Source: an uncultured Thermomicrobiales bacterium (GTDB lineage Bacteria > Chloroflexota > Chloroflexia > Thermomicrobiales > UBA6265). From it: a stretch of DNA of 20,920 nucleotides. The notes beneath the pieces are model-generated. The model worked only from the letters and a program-made list of their open reading frames with translations. It was not told the origin of the DNA and searched no databases. Positions 2,848 to 13,534 of the stretch are shown piece by piece; position 1 is the first letter of the stretch, and each line of letters begins with the position of its first letter. A program made the translations under genes and the position numbers. The stretch is taken from assembly GCA_902806355.1 (NCBI GenBank), contig CADCWI010000093.1, forward strand, positions 1 through 20,920, written 5' to 3'.

Positions 2848-3963
2848 TCAGGTCGAGAGTCGCTCGCGCACGGCGTCCCCAAACTCCGACGTGGATGCAA
2901 CGCCGCCAAGGTCGCTCGTGAGGACTCCTTCTGCCAGCGTCTGTGCCACTGCCCGTTCCACGCTCGCAGCTTCCGGCTCCAGGCCAAATGATTCCCGCAG
3001 CAGCATCGCCCCCGAGAGGATCGCTCCGGCGGGATTCGCCTTGCCCTGCCCGGCGATGTCCGGCGCGCTGCCGTGAATGGGCTCGTACAGACCGGGACGT
3101 CTGCCGTTGGACCGCGCGGCGCCAAGGCTTGCGGAGGGCAAGAGGCCGATCGAGCCGACCAAAACCGATGCTTCATCGGTCAGGATGTCCCCGAACATGT
3201 TCTCGGTGACGATCACGTCGTATGCGGTGGGGTTTTGGATCAACTTCATTGTCATCGCGTCGACGAGCATGTGTTCCACCGCCACGTCGGGATACTCCCG
3301 CGCGATCTCCGTCACCACGTTGCGCCAGAGCCGGGAGGATTCCAGCACATTCGCCTTGTCGACACTGGTCACCCGCTGCCGGCGGATACGGGCCTGTTCG
3401 AAGGCGAGTCGCACAACCCGTTCGATCTCGTACTCGCGGTAGATGAGCGTGTCCACGGCGACACGACCCCGCCGTTCTCGCCACTGACGGGAGGGTCTCC
3501 CGAAGTAGAGACCGCCCGTCAACTCGCGAACGACGAGAATGTCCGTTCCGCTGATGATCTCGGGTTTGATCGGTGATCCATGGGAGAGTGCTGGATGCAC
3601 CACCACAGGCCGCATATTGGCATACAACCCGAGCGCCTTGCGCATCCTGAGCAGGCCTTGTTCGGGCCGCACCGCGGCGGAGGGATCATCCCACTTCGGC
3701 CCGCCCACGGCCCCAAGCAGGACGGCGTCCGCAGCCCGCGCCTGCTCAATATCCTCATCCCGCAGTGCCGTTCCGAAGGCGTCGATTGCGCAACCGCCCA
3801 TCAGGATATCGACGTAGTCGATCCGATAACCGGCTCCAAGCGCGACGTCGTCGATGACCTTTCGTGCCTCCGCGATCACTTCCGGGCCGACACCGTCACC
3901 CGCACAGACGGCGATCCGGCCCTGGATCGGGCCACTTGGGTCATCGTGTCGAGGCGAGGTCAT
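2848..3963 (-). CDS. leuB: 3-isopropylmalate dehydrogenase
   Basis: Catalyses NAD-dependent oxidation and decarboxylation of 3-isopropylmalate to 2-oxoisocaproate in leucine synthesis. The 371-residue length is slightly above the common 350-365 because of a 14-residue N-terminal tail. The GDGVGPEV motif (22-29) is near the N-terminus. Substrate arginines lie in [16 protein letters not shown] (104-119) and in [12 protein letters not shown] (144-155). Tyr175, Lys203 (SVDKANVL) and the metal aspartates Asp235, Asp259 and Asp263 are present. The NAD-binding loop [19 protein letters not shown] ends the core (293-311). ATG 3963 is chosen over a longer frame (to 4068) that would overlap leuD and carries unrelated residues; GGAG sequences precede it. 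It is the last gene of the ilv-leu operon, 56 bases after leuD. No intrinsic terminator is visible in the ten bases before the convergent neighbour. Confidence 0.97.
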
Positions 3964-4019
3964 CAAGCTCCATTCTCCAAACAGATGCCGCGATACGCGC
4001 ACGCGAAACAAACGGTGCG

Positions 4020-4643
4020 TCAGTTCGGGTTGGCAACCGGGGCGGGGTGATTCACCCGCGGCTTCCACGATGGACGCCGCCGCTCGAAATCGCTGATCGT
4101 TTCCTCGTTCCTCATGGTAAGACCGATGTCATCAAGGCCCTCCAGAAGCCGGTGACGCGTAAAGTCATCCATCGGGAAGGTGGTCTCGAGTCCCACGGCC
4201 GGCGCCGAAACCGTCCGTCGCTCGACATCAACGATGACCTCGAGATACGGATGCTCGGCTGCGGCCTCCAAGAGCTCCGCTCCGAAATCCTCCGGAACCG
4301 TCACCGGGACTAGGCCTGACTTCGTCGCGTTGTTCTTGAAGATGTCCCCGAACTTTGTGGACACCACCGCCCTGAAGCCGTAGTCCATCAGCGCCCACAC
4401 CGCATGCTCGCGTGACGACCCGGTGCCGAAGTTCGGTCCGGCGATAAGCACCGATCCGCCTTCGAACTCGGGCCGGTTGAGAACAAATGTCGGGTCCGAC
4501 TCGCGCCATGCAGCAAAAAGGCCCTCACCGAATCCGGTCCGCTCCACCCGCTTGAGATACACAGCCGGGATGATCTGATCGGTATCGACGTTGCTGCGCT
4601 CGAGCGGTACGGCGCGTCCCGAAATTCTTGAGACTGGTTCCAT
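4020..4643 (-). CDS. leuD: 3-isopropylmalate dehydratase, small subunit
   Basis: Swivelling-domain subunit of isopropylmalate isomerase. With LeuC it converts 2-isopropylmalate to 3-isopropylmalate through isopropylmaleate. The length of 207 residues is typical. Visible motifs are [13 protein letters not shown] (18-30) and [17 protein letters not shown] (69-85), where the GSSREHA loop contacts substrate. [15 protein letters not shown] follows at 97-111. The ATG at 4643 comes ten bases after the leuC stop, and its ribosome binding site AAGGAG overlaps that stop codon (TAAGGAG), so translation of the two subunits is probably coupled, as expected for a heterodimer. The C-terminal tail after residue 185 is basic and Pro-rich and looks unconserved. 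Confidence 0.97.
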
Positions 4644-4652
4644 TTGTGCTCC

Positions 4653-6065
<1,413 letters not shown>

Positions 6066-6120: not shown

Positions 6121-6855
6121 TCAGGGTTTGCGACCAGCGAAGACGGCAAGCTCAAGCACCTTGAACAGGCAGTCGACATCCTTGAAGCCGATCGCTCGCA
6201 GCCAGGCGCACTGGTCGTCGACCGGCGCCAGGATGTTTGCGTCGACATCGTCACGGGATCGGAACTCTTCTGCGACTTCTTCAAGCGAGAGACCCGGGCT
6301 GACGGACGCGATCGATTCCACGGTCAGGGTGTCGAACGCGGTCGTGTATTGCTCGTTGACCGAGGCCACATGCTCGATATTGACGAACCATCCCCCGGCA
6401 CGGAGCACCGCAAACACCTCGGCATAGAGCGCCCGCTTTCGGTCATCTTCGACGTGGTGGATGGCGTACCGTGAGATCACGAGGTCGAACGGTTCCCGCC
6501 CTCGGACACCATCGATCCAGCGCGGGTCAGCAAGGTCGCCTTCGACCACCATGACATCGATGTCCCAGCCTGCGGCCCTCGCTCGAGCGTCATCAAGCAT
6601 CGGTGGCGAAAAGTCGACGAGGGTAGCTTCGCGGACATCGAATGCATCCGCGATCGTTGCCGTGGCGATACCATCACCGGATCCAAGGTCCAACACACGG
6701 ATCACGTTTGCGCCGTGTGCCCGCAACACGCTTTTGACAACATCGAATTGGGCATCGGCGAAGGGGATACCTGATCGAACGTCCTGATACCACCTCGTCG
6801 TCTGTGCTTGCTGCCACACCGATGTAGCTGGTCCAGGTCGATCAACAGGCATCAC
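6121..6855 (-). CDS. Class I SAM-dependent methyltransferase embedded in the leu operon
   Basis: A 244-residue Rossmann-fold methyltransferase. The SAM-binding motif I is [16 protein letters not shown] (54-69). The acidic end of strand 2 is [13 protein letters not shown] (79-91), EGDLADP (105-111) marks the next SAM contact, and [11 protein letters not shown] (125-135) the motif IV region. From memory, relatives sharing the C-terminal [20 protein letters not shown] block are annotated only as generic methyltransferases. Start is GTG 6855 or ATG 6852, both behind GGAG (6865-6862); the leuA stop is one base upstream, so the gene is translationally coupled to leuA. Its position between leuA and leuC suggests a link to isopropylmalate chemistry: the Tam/Tmt1 enzymes methylate trans-aconitate, and yeast Tmt1 also methylates 3-isopropylmalate. 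That substrate is inference only. Confidence 0.88.
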
Positions 6856-6856
6856 A

Positions 6857-8440
6857 TCAGCTCCAGCGAGACGTTGAGGAGCCCATCAGGACCGTGTCCG
6901 GCCGATGCTCGACGTACTGGCTGAGGGCCCCCAGATAGGCCCGTGCGCTCGCCTCGACGATATCCGTTGCCAGTCCATGGCCGGTGAAGATCTCGCCGTC
7001 GACCTTGATCCGCACGTGCACCTGACCCTGCGCGTCTTCACCTGGCGTGACCGCTTCGACGTGGTAGTAATGCAATTCGTTGTCAACCTGAACGGCCGCA
7101 TCGATCGCCTGGAACAAAGCGTTCACCGGTCCGTTGCCCTCGGCGTCTCCGGGAAACTCCTGGCCGTCGCGCTCGATCACGACACTCGCTGTCGCCGATC
7201 CACCGCTGCCGATACTTGCGTTCCAGCGCGCAAGGTGGAGGGTTGTGCCAGCGGTCTGAAGTTCGTCCGAGACGAGCGCGGAGATATCGGCACCCGTCAC
7301 GTTCTTCTTGCGATCTGCCAGCTCCAGAAAGCGCTGATACACCCCCTGAACCTGCTCATCGGGCACCTTGATGCCAAGTTCCGTCAGGGCATTGCGGAAT
7401 CCTGCCCGGCCCGAATGCTTGCCGAGCACGAGCTTCGTCCCCTCCCACCCTACATCGGTCGGGTCCATAATCTCGTACGTCGTCCGTTCCTTCAGCATGC
7501 CGTCCTGATGGATACCTGCTTCATGCGCGAACGCGTTGGCACCCACGATCGCCTTGTTGACCTGCACCGCGACTCCTGTCAGGCTGGCGACAAGGCGGCT
7601 GGTCGGGACCAGGCGACTCTTCTCGATCCGTGTAGTCACCCCTCCGAATTGTTCCGATCGGGTTGAGAGTGCCATCACGACTTCTTCGAGCGACGTGTTG
7701 CCTGCCCGCTCGCCGATCCCGTTCATCGTCACTTCGACTTGCCGCGCACCGGCCCCGACTGCGGCCAGGGTGTTCGCGGTAGCCATCCCGAGGTCGTCGT
7801 GACAGTGGACGGAGAGGATGCAATCGTCGATGTTGCGGACGTTCGCGCGCAGGTGACCGATGAGATCGACGAACTCGCCCGGTGTCGTGTAGCCGACGGT
7901 GTCCGGCACGTTGAGCGTGGTCGCCCCGGCGTCGATCGCCGCCTGGAAGACCTCAACCAGGAAGGACCACTCGGTGCGCGTCGCATCCTCGCAGGAGAAC
8001 TCCACATCACCTGTCAGGCTCCGGGCCAACGCGACCATCTCCGAGACCCGAGACAGGACGTCCGACCGGGACATACGGAGCTTGTGCTTGAGATGGATAT
8101 CCGACGTCGCGATGAAGGTGTGGATCCGCGCCTGGTCAGCAGTCCGAACGGCACTGGCTGCTCGTTCGATGTCGCCGGCGTTGGCCCGGGCCAGCCCGGC
8201 GACGGTAACGCCCTTTGCTCGCGAGGCGATCGCCCGGACCGCCTCGAAATCCCCGGGCGATGCAGCCGGAAACCCGGCTTCGATCACATCCACGTTGAGC
8301 GCCACGAGCGCATCCGCCACCTCGAGCTTCTCGTCCGCCGTCAGGGTCGCCCCGGGCGACTGCTCGCCATCCCGAAGCGTCGTGTCGAAAACGATGACGC
8401 GCGATGTCCCAGGTGGTACGTTGCTTTCCCGATCGCTCAT
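6857..8440 (-). CDS. leuA: 2-isopropylmalate synthase
   Basis: Condenses acetyl-CoA with 2-oxoisovalerate, the first committed step of leucine synthesis. The TIM-barrel catalytic domain begins with VFDTTLRDGEQSPGA (17-31), giving the metal Asp. VHCHDDLGMATANTLAAV (211-228) supplies the metal histidines 212 and 214, and NGIGERAGNTSLEEV (240-254) the conserved Asn and glycine-rich segment. The C-terminal region from about 390 is the LeuA dimer/regulatory domain where leucine binds in family members, so feedback inhibition is expected. The 527-residue length fits the long form of bacterial LeuA. The start ATG 8440 lies 31 bases after the ilvC stop, with only a weak ribosome binding site visible. 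Homocitrate or citramalate synthase are alternatives, but the operon context strongly favours LeuA. Confidence 0.96.
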   Translation of the reverse strand: MSDRESNVPPGTSRVIVFDTTLRDGEQSPGATLTADEKLEVADALVALNVDVIEAGFPAASPGDFEAVRAIASRAKGVTVAGLARANAGDIERAASAVRTADQARIHTFIATSDIHLKHKLRMSRSDVLSRVSEMVALARSLTGDVEFSCEDATRTEWSFLVEVFQAAIDAGATTLNVPDTVGYTTPGEFVDLIGHLRANVRNIDDCILSVHCHDDLGMATANTLAAVGAGARQVEVTMNGIGERAGNTSLEEVVMALSTRSEQFGGVTTRIEKSRLVPTSRLVASLTGVAVQVNKAIVGANAFAHEAGIHQDGMLKERTTYEIMDPTDVGWEGTKLVLGKHSGRAGFRNALTELGIKVPDEQVQGVYQRFLELADRKKNVTGADISALVSDELQTAGTTLHLARWNASIGSGGSATASVVIERDGQEFPGDAEGNGPVNALFQAIDAAVQVDNELHYYHVEAVTPGEDAQGQVHVRIKVDGEIFTGHGLATDIVEASARAYLGALSQYVEHRPDTVLMGSSTSRWS

Positions 8441-8471: not shown

Positions 8472-9506
<1,035 letters not shown>

Positions 9507-9598: not shown

Positions 9599-10138
9599 TC
9601 AATCCGCGACCGCGTACGAGCCGCCGTCGATCCGGTCGATCCGTCCCTGCTTGCCGCCCGCTCCCCGAGACATCGCGACCTTGCCACTTCGCACCAGCTC
9701 CCGGATGCCGAAGACGCGCATCATCGCCAGGAACGAGTCGATATGCTCCTCGTTCCCGGTCGCTTCGATCATCAGCGAATTCGGAGTGGCGTCAAGCACC
9801 CGCGCATCGTAGATGCCGGCAACCTGCAACACCTCGGCGCGACTCGGTCCCTTTGCGGCGACCTTGATTACGACCAACTCGCGGGTAATCGCCTCGTGCG
9901 CCGGGAGGTCCGTCACCTTGACGACTTCGAGCAGCTTGTACAGCTGCTTGCTGGCCTGCTCGACCTCACTGTCCTCACCGCGAACCAGCAAGGTCATGCG
10001 GGACAGCCCGGGCTGCTCCGAATGCCCGACCGTGATCGAATCGATGTTGAACGATCGCCGTCGCATGAGCGACACGACTCGATTGAGCACACCGGGCTGG
10101 TCTTCGACAAGGACGACGAGGGTATGTGTCGTTTCCAT
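9599..10138 (-). CDS. ilvN: Acetolactate synthase, small (regulatory) subunit
   Basis: Regulatory partner of IlvB that raises its activity and confers valine feedback inhibition. The product has 179 residues, of the longer IlvH type. The N-terminal ACT domain (about 4-78) shows LVVLVEDQPGVLNRVVSLMRRRSFNIDSITVG, where Gly16 and Asn31 fall near the valine-binding turn of known ACT small subunits. The C-terminal domain (about 85-160) includes ELVVIKVA and an FGIRELVRSGKVAMSRG ending. ATG 10138 is chosen over an in-frame start at 10168 that overlaps ilvB: the protein then opens METTHTLVVLVED, as in the family, with GGAGG ten bases upstream. Only two bases separate it from the ilvB stop, so the two subunits are probably translationally coupled. 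Confidence 0.96.
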   Translation of the reverse strand: METTHTLVVLVEDQPGVLNRVVSLMRRRSFNIDSITVGHSEQPGLSRMTLLVRGEDSEVEQASKQLYKLLEVVKVTDLPAHEAITRELVVIKVAAKGPSRAEVLQVAGIYDARVLDATPNSLMIEATGNEEHIDSFLAMMRVFGIRELVRSGKVAMSRGAGGKQGRIDRIDGGSYAVAD

Positions 10139-10140
10139 GG

Positions 10141-11928
10141 CTACACATCCTCCGGGGATGGAGCCCACTGCGGATCATGCATCATGTCGGAATTGCTCTT
10201 GCCCGGCGGGACGATCGGATAGACGTTCGCCTCCGGCTCGACCACGAAATCGATCAGCACCGGTCCCCTGATCGAGCGCGCTCGCGCGATCGCGGTTTCG
10301 ATCTCCTCGGTTCGGGTCACGCGGATGCCGGTCGCGCCGTAGGCCTCTGCGAGCTTGACGAAGTCAGGACCGCTGATCTCTACCTCGGAGTAGTTTCCGT
10401 TATGGAACAGGTCCTGCCACTGTCGCACCATCCCGAGATAGCCGTTGTTGATGATCGCGATGTTGATATCGAGCTTCTGCTGGACGGCGGTGGCCAGCTC
10501 GTTCGACGACATCTGGAACCCGCCGTCGCCGATCACCGCCCAGACCTCCAGATCGGGCCGTCCCATCTTCGCGCCGATCGCCGAGGGCAATCCGTATCCC
10601 ATCGTGCCGAGGCCACCGGACGTGATCCAGCGTGTGCCGTACTTCACCCCAAGTTGCTGGGCCGACCACATTTGATGCTGACCGACGTCCGTGGTCACGA
10701 TCGCGTTACGGTCCGTCGCGGCAGAGATCGCCTTGATGATCGCGTAGGGCTCCGGCGTCTCCGGGATGTCCTCGAGCGCTGCCTCCAGCACCCGGTCCCG
10801 CTGACCATCGATCCACTTCATCCAGCCATGATGATCCCGCGGCTCGACCTCGTTGAGCAGGAGCCTGAGCGCCTCCCCGGCATCGCCGACGACGGGGATG
10901 TCAGTTCGAATGTTCTTGCCGATCTCGGCCGGGTCGATGTCGACGTGGATGATCCTGGCGTTGGGCGCGAAGCCCGCGACCTGGCCCGTGGCGCGATCAT
11001 CGAAGCGGGCACCGATGTTGATGAGCAGATCACATTCTTCGAGCGCCCGGTTGGCGTGCCGGTGCCCGTGCATGCCCATCATCCCAAGCGATTGGGGATG
11101 CCGCTCGTCCATCGCGCCAAGCCCGAGCAGCGTATAGATCACCGGGATGTTCGACCGCTCGGCGAAGCGTCTGAAGATGTCCTCAGCCCCGCTCAGGATG
11201 ATTCCATGCCCTGCCATGATGAGCGGTTTCTGGGCCGCATTGATCGCATCCGCGGCAAGCCGGACCTGTCGCATGTTGGGAACGAGGTTTGGCTGATAGC
11301 TCTTGCGACCGGTCTTCTTCGGATAGGAAAAGGCCGCCTCGGCGATGAACACGTCCTTGGGAATGTCGACCAGCACTGGTCCCGGCCGGCCGGAACGAGC
11401 CAGATAGAAGGCTTCCTTGATCGTCGGGGCGATGTCCTCGGCCCTGCGCACGAGATAGTTGTGCTTGGTGACGGGAAGTGTAATGCCGGTGATGTCGACC
11501 TCCTGGAATCCGTCCCGCCCGATCAGTGACTGGGCCACCTGGCCAGTGATCGCGACGAGTGGCACGGAATCGAGGTATGCATCCGCAAGCGCAGTCACCA
11601 GGTTCGTCGCACCGGGACCGGATGTGGCGATGCAAACCCCCACATCACCGGTGGCGCGGGCATAGCCTACAGCGGCCAGAGCTGCCCACTGTTCGAACCG
11701 GGTAAGCACATGCTCGAACCCGGATTCGGGCAGCGCATCATAGAGCGGGATGACCGCTCCACCGGGATATCCGAAAACGGTCGTGACACCCTCCGCCTCC
11801 AGGCTGCGGCAGGTGATCCGGGCGCCGCTCAGAATCTCCGGCGACACAGCGAGAGCAGTGCCGTCCGCGTTCGGGAGAGGTGTTGTTTGGGCTTCCGCCG
11901 CGCTGGCTCGCGATTCCGCAACGATCAT
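10141..11928 (-). CDS. ilvB: Acetolactate synthase, large (catalytic) subunit
   Basis: Thiamin-diphosphate enzyme making acetolactate from pyruvate or acetohydroxybutyrate from pyruvate plus 2-oxobutyrate. The 595 residues show FGYPGGAVIPLYDAL (52-66), the catalytic Glu79, ATSGPGATNLVT (101-112), and the ThDP/Mg motif GDGGFQM (467 on) with NNGYLGMVRQWQ (494-505). The segment around the catalytic Glu is unusual: TRFEQWAALAAVGYARATG, where most family members have RHEQ-x-AAH-x-A-x-GYARATG. The key Glu is kept but the neighbouring His residues and an Asp are replaced. ATG 11928 is preferred over TTG 11958: GGAG lies eight bases upstream and the extra ten residues look unconserved. It is the first structural gene of the operon, behind the attenuator. 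Residues 1-30 form a low-complexity tail before the family-like start. Confidence 0.96.
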   Translation of the reverse strand: MIVAESRASAAEAQTTPLPNADGTALAVSPEILSGARITCRSLEAEGVTTVFGYPGGAVIPLYDALPESGFEHVLTRFEQWAALAAVGYARATGDVGVCIATSGPGATNLVTALADAYLDSVPLVAITGQVAQSLIGRDGFQEVDITGITLPVTKHNYLVRRAEDIAPTIKEAFYLARSGRPGPVLVDIPKDVFIAEAAFSYPKKTGRKSYQPNLVPNMRQVRLAADAINAAQKPLIMAGHGIILSGAEDIFRRFAERSNIPVIYTLLGLGAMDERHPQSLGMMGMHGHRHANRALEECDLLINIGARFDDRATGQVAGFAPNARIIHVDIDPAEIGKNIRTDIPVVGDAGEALRLLLNEVEPRDHHGWMKWIDGQRDRVLEAALEDIPETPEPYAIIKAISAATDRNAIVTTDVGQHQMWSAQQLGVKYGTRWITSGGLGTMGYGLPSAIGAKMGRPDLEVWAVIGDGGFQMSSNELATAVQQKLDINIAIINNGYLGMVRQWQDLFHNGNYSEVEISGPDFVKLAEAYGATGIRVTRTEEIETAIARARSIRGPVLIDFVVEPEANVYPIVPPGKSNSDMMHDPQWAPSPEDV

Positions 11929-12139
11929 TCCGGGTGCTCCGTTTCCATCCTCGGCCAACCCAGTGTTTCGGATCAGCCCATGTCGTCGACGTCCGACTCA
12001 CCCACCGGAAGGGGACTTCCGAAACCGATCGCCACGTTACAGGCAGATCGGAGGGGGTAAGGCCTCGTGTTTCCGGCGCTGGAAACGGGTAAGGCATCGG
12101 ATGCATCCCGGGCGACATTGGACAGGAGCATCTGGCAAC
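11929..12139 (-). other. Untranslated leader between the attenuator terminator and ilvB
   Basis: About 210 bases without a gene on either strand that I can support. On the transcript strand it holds two small perfect hairpins: GTTTCC/GGAAAC (12086-12069, six-base loop) and CGGAAG/CTTCCG (12021-12006, four-base loop). It also holds the palindrome GGATGCATCC (12108-12099). None is followed by a T-run. The ilvB ribosome binding site GGAG lies at its end. No function can be assigned beyond being the read-through leader. Confidence 0.45.
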
Positions 12140-12167
12140 AAAAAAGCCTCCCCGGATTGTGGGAGGC
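12140..12167 (-). terminator. Intrinsic terminator of the ilv leader (attenuator, segments 3:4)
   Basis: On the minus strand GCCTCCC (12167-12161) pairs perfectly with GGGAGGC (12152-12146) around an eight-base loop, and six T follow directly (12145-12140). It lies after the leader peptide stop and about 210 bases before ilvB, on the same strand as the operon. It would end transcription before the structural genes unless the 5' arm is captured by the antiterminator. It is the only clear hairpin-plus-T-run terminator I found in the window. Confidence 0.88.
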
Positions 12168-12257
12168 CAGCTTCTTCAGTCGTCTTTGGTATTCGATTCG
12201 TCTATCTGGCTCCCCGCCGTTCCGCACACCAACCGCTCCCTACTGGGAGCGAGATAA
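12140..12257 (-). promoter_or_regulatory. Ribosome-mediated transcription attenuator with alternative stems 1:2, 2:3 and 3:4
   Basis: Three mutually exclusive pairings can be drawn by hand on the minus-strand RNA. Segment 1, TTATCTCGCTCCC (12257-12245), lies inside the leader peptide gene and pairs with segment 2, GGGAGCCAGATAG (12214-12202), which ends with the leader stop codon: 12 of 13 positions pair, one being a wobble. Segment 2 shifted by a base, GGGGAGCCAG (12215-12206), can instead pair with segment 3, CTGGCCTCCC (12170-12161): 9 of 10 pair, including one wobble. Segment 3 also forms the terminator with segment 4. A small local hairpin, CGCTCCC/GGGAGCG (12251-12234), competes with 1:2. 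A ribosome stalled on Leu/Ile/Val codons 11-14 would cover segment 1, free segment 2 to hold segment 3, and permit read-through. A ribosome reaching the stop would cover segment 2 and allow termination. Confidence 0.85.
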
Positions 12258-12294
12258 GTACGAGGCTAATAATGGAGAGGGATGTCAGAACCAT
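12202..12294 (-). CDS. ilv operon leader peptide, Leu/Ile/Val-rich, 30 residues
   Basis: A 30-codon reading frame whose first 18 residues are MVLTSLSIISLVLISLPV: five Leu, three Ile and three Val, 11 branched-chain residues in all. The tail GSGWCAERRGAR contains none. Several of these codons (ATT twice, GTA twice, CTT once) are uncommon in the surrounding genes, which favour ATC, GTC and CTC/CTG; this would sharpen stalling. The TAG stop at 12204-12202 sits inside attenuator segment 2. AGGAA (12312-12308) lies 13 bases before ATG 12294, longer than ideal; an in-frame ATG at 12324 would give a 40-residue version without a visible ribosome binding site. Its role is expected to be translation itself, sensing charged tRNA for all three amino acids, not the peptide product. 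Confidence 0.86.
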   Translation of the reverse strand: MVLTSLSIISLVLISLPVGSGWCAERRGAR

Positions 12295-12354
12295 GATGCA
12301 GTCGACGTTCCTGTGCGGAATCATGACGAAATACGGACTCGTTCCGTCTGGATC

Positions 12355-12384
12355 AGCATACGGGGTCCGCAATCTCCTTGTCAA
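12355..12384 (-). promoter_or_regulatory. Promoter of the ilv-leu operon (sigma-70 type)
   Basis: On the minus strand a perfect -35 hexamer TTGACA (12384-12379) is followed after 18 bases by TATGCT (12360-12355), four of six matches to the -10 consensus. Transcription would start near 12348, placing the leader peptide ATG about 54 bases into the RNA. A small hairpin, ACGGA/TCCGT (12347-12333), would form at the 5' end. It lies downstream of the DUF3090 stop codon, so the operon has its own promoter. Confidence 0.72.
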
Positions 12385-12512
12385 CAGAACGGACATTGTG
12401 CCGTTCCTTCCGGCAGCAACGAGGCAACGACGGAATGACAGGATACGCATGAGGATATGGTCGATACCCTCGCCGGGATCGACCAGCGTCATCATCCGCG
12501 CCGCCAGACCGA

Positions 12513-13055
12513 TCAGACGGTCTCGTTCTCATCGAACGACAACGGCAGATGCCCGTTCTGCTCCGGACACACGTGACCTTCCCGATCCATCGGAGATCCG
12601 CACATCGGACAACGGGGACGTCCCGCGGAGGCAACCGTTGCGGCGTCAACACTCAATGACTTGGCTTGCGCCTGGGACAGCCGGATATTCAGCGAGGGCG
12701 TCACCGCCTCGTCGTCCTGCTGCAGGTCGAATGCGCTGATCACGATTCGGCCGACCGGCTCCTCGAACCCGAGTTCGATTCGCCCCAGGCGAAATTGATG
12801 GTCCGTCTGTTCATCGAGCTCGATCGGGGCGTCACTATTGTCGAGTACTGGAAGATCGGACGCTACTTGTTCGAGGATCTGTTCGACGGCCAGTCCCAAG
12901 GCCTGGAGCTGCTGCTTTTCCATCCAGATGATGTGTGTTTCGCCCCGGACGGCGACCAGCATGCGGAATCGTCGTTGCCCCGGCTCCCCCAGCGCCTCGA
13001 CGCGCAGGCGTTGGGCATCGTCAGCGGAAGAAGAATGCAGGAAGTCGTCGGTCAT
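12513..13055 (-). CDS. DUF3090 family protein with C-terminal zinc-ribbon-like motif
   Basis: A 180-residue soluble protein resembling the DUF3090 family, which I know mainly from Actinobacteria and Chloroflexota; its function is not established. The family-like core has EALGEPGQRRFRMLVA (20-35) and the helix MEKQQLQALGLAVEQIL (45-61), then strands FRLGRIELGFEE and VGRIVISAFDL. LRLSQAQAKSLS-type sequence precedes the tail. The end reads GRPRCPMCGSPMDREGHVCPEQNGH, with Cys149, Cys152, Cys163 and possibly His169 as metal ligands. ATG 13055 is chosen because upstream residues look unconserved; the ribosome binding site is weak. It lies upstream of the ilv operon on the same strand, but the ilv promoter sits between them and no functional link is evident. 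Confidence 0.8.
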   Translation of the reverse strand: MTDDFLHSSSADDAQRLRVEALGEPGQRRFRMLVAVRGETHIIWMEKQQLQALGLAVEQILEQVASDLPVLDNSDAPIELDEQTDHQFRLGRIELGFEEPVGRIVISAFDLQQDDEAVTPSLNIRLSQAQAKSLSVDAATVASAGRPRCPMCGSPMDREGHVCPEQNGHLPLSFDENETV

Positions 13056-13534
13056 GGAAGAGTGGGCCTTGTCTGAGGGAAGCGTACGGTCATTGTATCG
13101 TCTGTCGGGTGACTCACCATTATGAAGGCAAAGTTCATCGTCAGTAAAGAATAGCAACATTCAGGGCCTGGCGCACGGATACCGGACGGAGGAGCCCCCT
13201 GCCCGGCGATGTTCGCATTGAATACGTTCCATGGGCCAGGCCGTCAGATGATTGCGCTTATCGCTCCGCCGTCGATGCCGGGCGTTCAGCGCGGGTTTTC
13301 CTGGCTTGTGGAGTCCTTTCCAAGCAACTCGCGAGATGGTAACCATCGCACCCTCAGAACTCGTCCGCCAGGACATGCAGCGCCGTGTTCCGTCCTGCGT
13401 TGGTCAATGTATATGGAGAGGTTTGCGAGAAACCCATACCGTATGATCCCGTATGCACAGGTCCTCGCGACCGCCTGTCGCGGACAACGAATTACCTCAA
13501 ACGGAATCATTTCCGCAAAGGATCGGAGCACTCC
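13056..13534 (+). other. Divergent intergenic region between the DUF3090 and HD-domain genes
   Basis: About 480 bases with no gene I can support on either strand; the short open frames lack ribosome binding sites and family features. It holds the palindrome CATAC-C-GTATG (13435-13445), overlapping a direct repeat of CCGTATG (13439-13445 and 13449-13455). It also holds a hairpin CGCGAC/GTCGCG with a five-base loop (13466-13482), about 50 bases before the HD gene. TATGAT (13442-13447) resembles a -10 box, but no good -35 is correctly spaced. Promoters for both flanking genes must lie here. Confidence 0.4.

Follow-up and report, generated by a model that had tools for sequence, protein, structure and literature searches.

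The window, a stretch of 20,920 nucleotides from an uncultured Thermomicrobiales bacterium, carries on its minus strand, as do all features described below, an eight-gene run identified with NCBIfam as ilvB-ilvN-ilvC-leuA-methyltransferase-leuC-leuD-leuB, which lies downstream of a leader peptide gene and an intrinsic terminator. The acetolactate synthase large subunit gene ilvB occupies 10141-11928, with its start assigned by us to ATG 11928, and is followed by ilvN (9599-10168), ilvC (8472-9506), leuA, coding for 2-isopropylmalate synthase (6857-8440), leuC (4653-6056), leuD (4020-4643) and leuB (2848-3966), the starts of leuC and leuB being approximate. Between leuA and leuC is a SAM-methyltransferase-like gene (6121-6855) for which no family scored above its cut-off. 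The eight genes presumably form one transcript. The original prediction had included the methyltransferase among eight genes under a single sensor; the gene does belong to the run, but it was rejected as a fixed member of the operon, as only two of the six other complete clade operons carry it (L177 and L179). A promoter-like site, TTGACA-18-TATGCT, is found at 12355-12384 as a consensus match only, with one site found against 0.2 expected. The gene upstream of the leader, at 12513-13160, is on the same strand as the operon.

The leader peptide gene MVLTSLSIISLVLISLPVGSGWCAERRGAR contains 30 codons (12202-12294) and ends with the stop codon TAG at 12204-12202. Its start at ATG 12294 is our choice, another in-frame ATG being located at 12324, and no good Shine-Dalgarno site is obvious 5' of ATG 12294. 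This short reading frame is rich in codons for the amino acids made by the pathway itself, and its control codons are CTC GTA CTT ATC (Leu-Val-Leu-Ile, 12253-12264). In the 14 genes of the window, GTA accounts for 4.8% of the valine codons and CTT for 15.9% of the leucine codons. That attenuator leaders show biased codon use is established, and rarity alone is regarded as an oversimplification for which selective tRNA charging gives a better account, as discussed in part of PMC1183508.

For comparison, ilvB was searched for in 158 genomes representing the class of a Sphaerobacter MAG and was identified in 138 of them at E<=1e-150. The closest by ilvB identity were found among G127-G158, and 27 loci (L085-L111, 68-84%) were taken. 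In 26 of these loci there is a leader rich in isoleucine, leucine and valine, together with a terminator and, close to the stop codon of the leader, an antiterminator strand; the remaining one, L087, is truncated and has no upstream DNA. The 26 relatives and the window together make up the 27 aligned elements. GTA and CTT of the control codons are found in 25 of the 27, the other two (L092 and L095) containing a shifted GTA/CTC/CTT/ATT run instead.

The intrinsic terminator (3:4) with its T tract is located between the leader and the first gene at 12140-12168, one being found in that region against 0.4 expected. Its arms, GGCCTCCC and GGGAGGCT, cover 12168-12145, and the six T predicted to follow segment 4 are present at 12145-12140. 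Both arms and at least four T are found in 27 of 27 clade elements. That this is a plain terminator of the gene at 12513-13160 standing beside a chance reading frame, as the shared strand of that gene would allow, is extremely improbable, since leader, codons and pairings are conserved in the relatives and since reading frames in which I, L or V fill 7 or more of 10 positions occur in 64 of 92 ilvB-upstream regions, compared with 7 for the reverse strand and 1 for shuffled sequence. It is also very unlikely that the leader works with Rho or on ilvB translation, with the hairpin and T tract not serving as the main control point. Such a reading would accommodate the outgroup loci L081, L112 and L113, which retain the leader with no T run of five seen, and L082, which has no T run of five near the leader; it is at odds with the intrinsic terminator of the window and with the constancy of arms and T tract throughout the clade.

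The region 3' of the terminator, at 12131-11973, was considered as a second small gene (MLLSNVARDASD...) and rejected as such: in eight of nine close loci a reading frame starts like MLLTNGAKDASD (the window, L085-L088, L090, L092, L095), but tails, lengths and frames diverge. The region may represent either a conserved RNA or a small gene in decay.

The antiterminator strand, segment 2 (GGGGAGCCAG, 12206-12215), adjoins the leader stop and is supported by duplex energy, shuffles and a comparison of own with foreign pairing. As first read it was GGGAGCCAGATAG at 12214-12202 and, as claimed, includes the stop codon. Segment 3 (CTGGCCTCCC, 12161-12170) is common to the antiterminator and the 5' arm of the terminator, also as predicted, and the antiterminator strand is placed where a ribosome at the stop codon could mask it. 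By reading, 12215-12206 pairs with 12170-12161 at 9 of 10 positions, with p=0.048 against dinucleotide shuffles. Many relatives have a stronger 2:3 than the window; the pairing exceeds such shuffles (p<0.05) in 21 of the 27 elements and does not in six. In L096 the segments have changed in a coordinated way, segment 3 reading CCCCCC and both segment 2 and segment 4 GGGGGG. Once strand strength is corrected for, segments 2 and 3 pair better with each other than with foreign partners, with z=-10.2 over 115 elements, z=-7.6 for 88 further elements and z=-4.6 for the clade 27, in permutations uncorrected for phylogeny. Taken singly, elements often do not stand out: 21 of the 115 fall below the 5th percentile of foreign 2:3 pairs. 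Nine of the 97 model-found elements were dropped from this test as doubtful or near-duplicate (L235, L246, L225, L241, L245, L194, L230, L217 and L125), while near-duplicates such as L203/L214 and L121/L123 were retained.

Segment 1 of the original prediction, TTATCTCGCTCCC (12245-12257), corresponds to leader codons 13-17 when ATG 12294 is taken as codon 1, and was proposed to complete a classic 1:2/2:3/3:4 switch. In such a switch 1:2 would sequester segment 2 in the absence of a ribosome, and an untranslated leader would therefore terminate. The pairing exists in the window at 12 of 13 positions, with p=0.004 against shuffled downstream sequence when this one site is tested post hoc, and its duplex, at -19.1 kcal/mol, is more stable than that of 2:3, at -15.6 kcal/mol. 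However, the best pairing among the 26 relatives reaches 11 of 13, and p<0.05 is attained in none, which rules out 1:2 as a conserved element and makes it specific to the window; moreover, the minimum-energy folds of the window RNA use the same strand for a local hairpin at 12252-12233 in place of 1:2. A four-segment attenuator of the trp/ilv type, defined by a conserved 1:2 stem hiding segment 2, is thus unlikely here, although 2:3, 3:4 and the position of segment 2 at the leader stop all stand.

The local hairpin, TCGCTCCC-AGTA-GGGAGCGG (12233-12252), lies within the leader codons with its 5' arm inside segment 1, and is indicated both by minimum-energy folds and by comparison. Six core pairs are found in 27 of 27 elements, and in 26 of 27 the stability of the hairpin exceeds that of synonymous recodings of its peptide (p<0.05). 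In L088 an A-U pair replaces the C-G pair of the others, a swap that alters two amino acids, and in six members the loop is longer by one codon. Of the 14 pairs of hairpin and terminator, three have changed in both partners, in a single sequence in each case; this count was reached by 3 of 500 shuffles and the covariation score by none, and the close relationship of the clade means that such changes represent few independent events. Covariation, which had been proposed as a check on all three stems, is seen only in part: the changes on both sides in hairpin and terminator are few, 2:3 strands fit their own genome better than others, and 1:2 is unsupported in the relatives. Judged by this comparison of sequences, segment 1 is conserved as an arm of the local hairpin and not as the strand of a 1:2 stem, and segment 2 would be masked more simply by a ribosome at the leader stop. 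The GGGAG arm of the hairpin may also pair with segment 3, this 1':3 duplex having an energy of -11.2 kcal/mol in the window.

Folding with segment 1 masked, the other check proposed, left the terminator in place: the full-length static fold retains 3:4 even then, so that 2:3 must win by forming first. The RNA was also folded as it stands just after segment 3 emerges, with the ribosome at different positions, in all 27 elements. With the ribosome at the control codons, the mean probability of 2:3 is 0.72, being above 0.5 in 20 elements and at or below 0.5 in seven; with no ribosome the mean is 0.51, with 15 of 27 above 0.5; and with the ribosome at the stop codon it is 0.02, with none of the 27 above 0.5, a near-zero value that arises largely because segment 2 falls within the assumed ribosome footprint, which is the anatomical point. 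The window is not the cleanest member, its own 2:3 probabilities being 0.43 with a stalled ribosome, 0.54 with no ribosome and 0.00 at the stop.

The leader, its codons, the hairpin, the 2:3 and 3:4 pairings and their geometry, as established from the sequence and its comparison among relatives, point very probably to a ribosome-mediated transcription attenuator of the branched-chain amino acid operon, in line with the leader-peptide attenuation, antiterminator 2:3 and terminator 3:4 originally predicted. In the proposed mechanism, a ribosome would trail RNA polymerase across the leader and would stall at CTC-GTA-CTT-ATC if tRNA charged with Leu, Val or Ile is scarce. The stalled ribosome would cover the 5' arm of the hairpin and leave segment 2 free, so that 2:3 would form first, no terminator would arise and the genes would be expressed. 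When charged tRNA is ample, the ribosome would reach the stop codon and cover segment 2, 3:4 would form and transcription would end at about 12140. Behind a ribosome at the stop, the in-leader hairpin probably folds again, thereby holding its GGGAG arm off segment 3, and may in addition or instead pause or time the polymerase.

T-box leaders (RF00230) resemble this system in sensing tRNA charging before amino acid genes. No Rfam family was found in the window at gathering score or within 11900-12500 at E up to 1, in agreement with the earlier statement that no T-box was seen. The window thus matches no attenuator family of Rfam 15. In 20 related loci the Rfam matches were T-box, tRNA and RNase P at gathering score together with four weaker ones, none of them to an amino-acid leader family. 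Replacement of leaders by T-boxes was rejected, since in another scan of 20 loci only L153 matched a T-box, and L153 has a leader too. In three relatives, in contrast to the window, a T-box with its own T-rich terminator directly precedes a branched-chain amino acid leader attenuator upstream of ilvB: L140 (344-553), L152 (349-564) and L153 (372-586), with scores of 106.5, 131 and 137.5 bits, respectively, against a gathering score of 93. These loci would carry two tRNA sensors in tandem, and the specifier of the T-boxes is one that we take to be CUC (Leu).

A covariance model, R1, comprising the hairpin and the terminator and containing neither the 2:3 pairing nor a downstream gene, matches 57 of 400 Chloroflexota genomes (E<=0.01, stricter filters); the occurrence of hairpin and terminator in these matches is partly circular, as the model contains both. 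When R1 was scored on 44 of the 64 non-clade ilvB-upstream loci, 36 matched at E<=0.01, four of them only in part; in the 20 loci left out, a reading frame with at least 7 residues I, L or V in 12 was found in eight and none in 12. R1 matches precede ilvB and also cimA, ilvD, ilvE, leuA, threonine synthase and others. Ten of the proteins encoded downstream were checked with NCBIfam, most over their first 300 residues, for which reason only ilvE exceeded a whole-protein cut-off, and two had no family; the rest were assigned by similarity. Eight elements have no assigned gene, and some of these matches (L225, L235, L241, L245 and L246) look spurious.

The I:L:V counts are 96:240:151 in the 58 leaders before ilvB, 15:21:19 in the six before ilvD, 31:2:4 in the seven before cimA, several of which are near-identical, and 0:7:0 in the single leader before leuA. 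The isoleucine-rich leaders thus precede cimA, for citramalate synthase (L197, L202, L203, L214, L228, L230 and L233), and the leucine-only leader precedes leuA (L238). By these counts, leader composition follows the pathway of the downstream gene, which lends indirect weight to a response to tRNA charging through coupled translation. The antiterminator strand is often GGGAGG, which gives the leader a Gly-Gly or Gly-Arg end. A further group of branched-chain-rich leader elements (L207, L211, L215, L224 and L227) precedes a regulator labelled PucR-like by us, of which one protein was checked and had no NCBIfam match; some of these loci also contain a TPP-enzyme-like protein with no NCBIfam match. 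The R1 matches before threonine synthase (L237, L243 and L244) have leaders poor in branched-chain runs, one being rich in Met and Pro and one containing Ile and Ser.

It is conceivable, at somewhat less than even chance, that these elements constitute a phylum-wide Chloroflexota regulon of distinct build, with a hairpin within the leader codons and an antiterminator strand masked by the terminating ribosome, so that an untranslated leader would read through. Its leaders would be tuned to the pathway, to isoleucine for cimA, to leucine for leuA and to all three amino acids for both ilvB and ilvD. In some lineages the attenuator would follow a T-box and so give one operon a second tRNA sensor. 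This wider reading is rated lower because the hairpin is more stable than recodings (p<0.05) in only 36 of 88 non-clade elements and is hence not universal.

Leader-peptide attenuation is a textbook mechanism, and the ilvGMEDA, ilvBN and leu attenuators of E. coli are built of a leader, an antiterminator and a terminator. Their existence is noted in part of PMC1183508. The element described here resembles them in its branched-chain-rich leader peptide, in an antiterminator strand common to the intrinsic terminator and in the biosynthetic operon that follows, and differs from them in having a local hairpin within the leader codons and no conserved 1:2, as well as in phylum and sequence. It also resembles the Corynebacterium ilvBNC attenuator and the ilvB-II motif, which, in the parts of PMC10272879 and PMC11857589 that deal with them, have a branched-chain leader before ilvB, a terminator, an antiterminator and a third hairpin. 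According to the same parts, the third hairpin of Corynebacterium overlaps the antiterminator, acting as an antiantiterminator, and protects the stretch that immediately follows the leader start, whereas the hairpin found here is mid-leader and does not include segment 2. The ilvB-OMG and Leptospira ilvB motifs likewise lie before ilvB with predicted branched-chain-rich uORFs, a comparison made by description only from part of PMC10272879, in which the 41 ilvB-OMG members are said to come from various phyla and are not listed individually.

For Actinobacteria, ilvB leaders with terminators had been predicted in 2005 in a paper that also warned that altering codons in Streptomyces was without effect (PMC1262725). 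A 2010 survey, which describes a Firmicutes case of its own, states that its authors knew of no earlier demonstration of such attenuation beyond Proteobacteria and Actinobacteria (PMC2965389). The amino-acid attenuators then in Rfam are given as His, Leu, Thr and Trp in a section of PMC3766115, a paper that treats Chloroflexi riboswitches, and in the passages of PMC4833913 Chloroflexi figure only as a group represented by few genomes. Among the literature matches listed there is no report of such attenuators in Chloroflexota, and the 2010 comparative survey by Lopatovskaya et al. could hold cases. The kind of system is thus already known from E. coli and Corynebacterium, and what appears to be new is the phylum and the in-leader hairpin that replaces a conserved 1:2 stem.

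A conserved and pathway-matched set of this kind in Chloroflexota, if true, would widen the range of leader-peptide attenuation. It would also provide annotators with a searchable model, allow predictions of the amino acid to which each operon responds, and offer natural variants, such as the in-leader hairpin and the tandem with a T-box, for testing the coupling of ribosome and polymerase.
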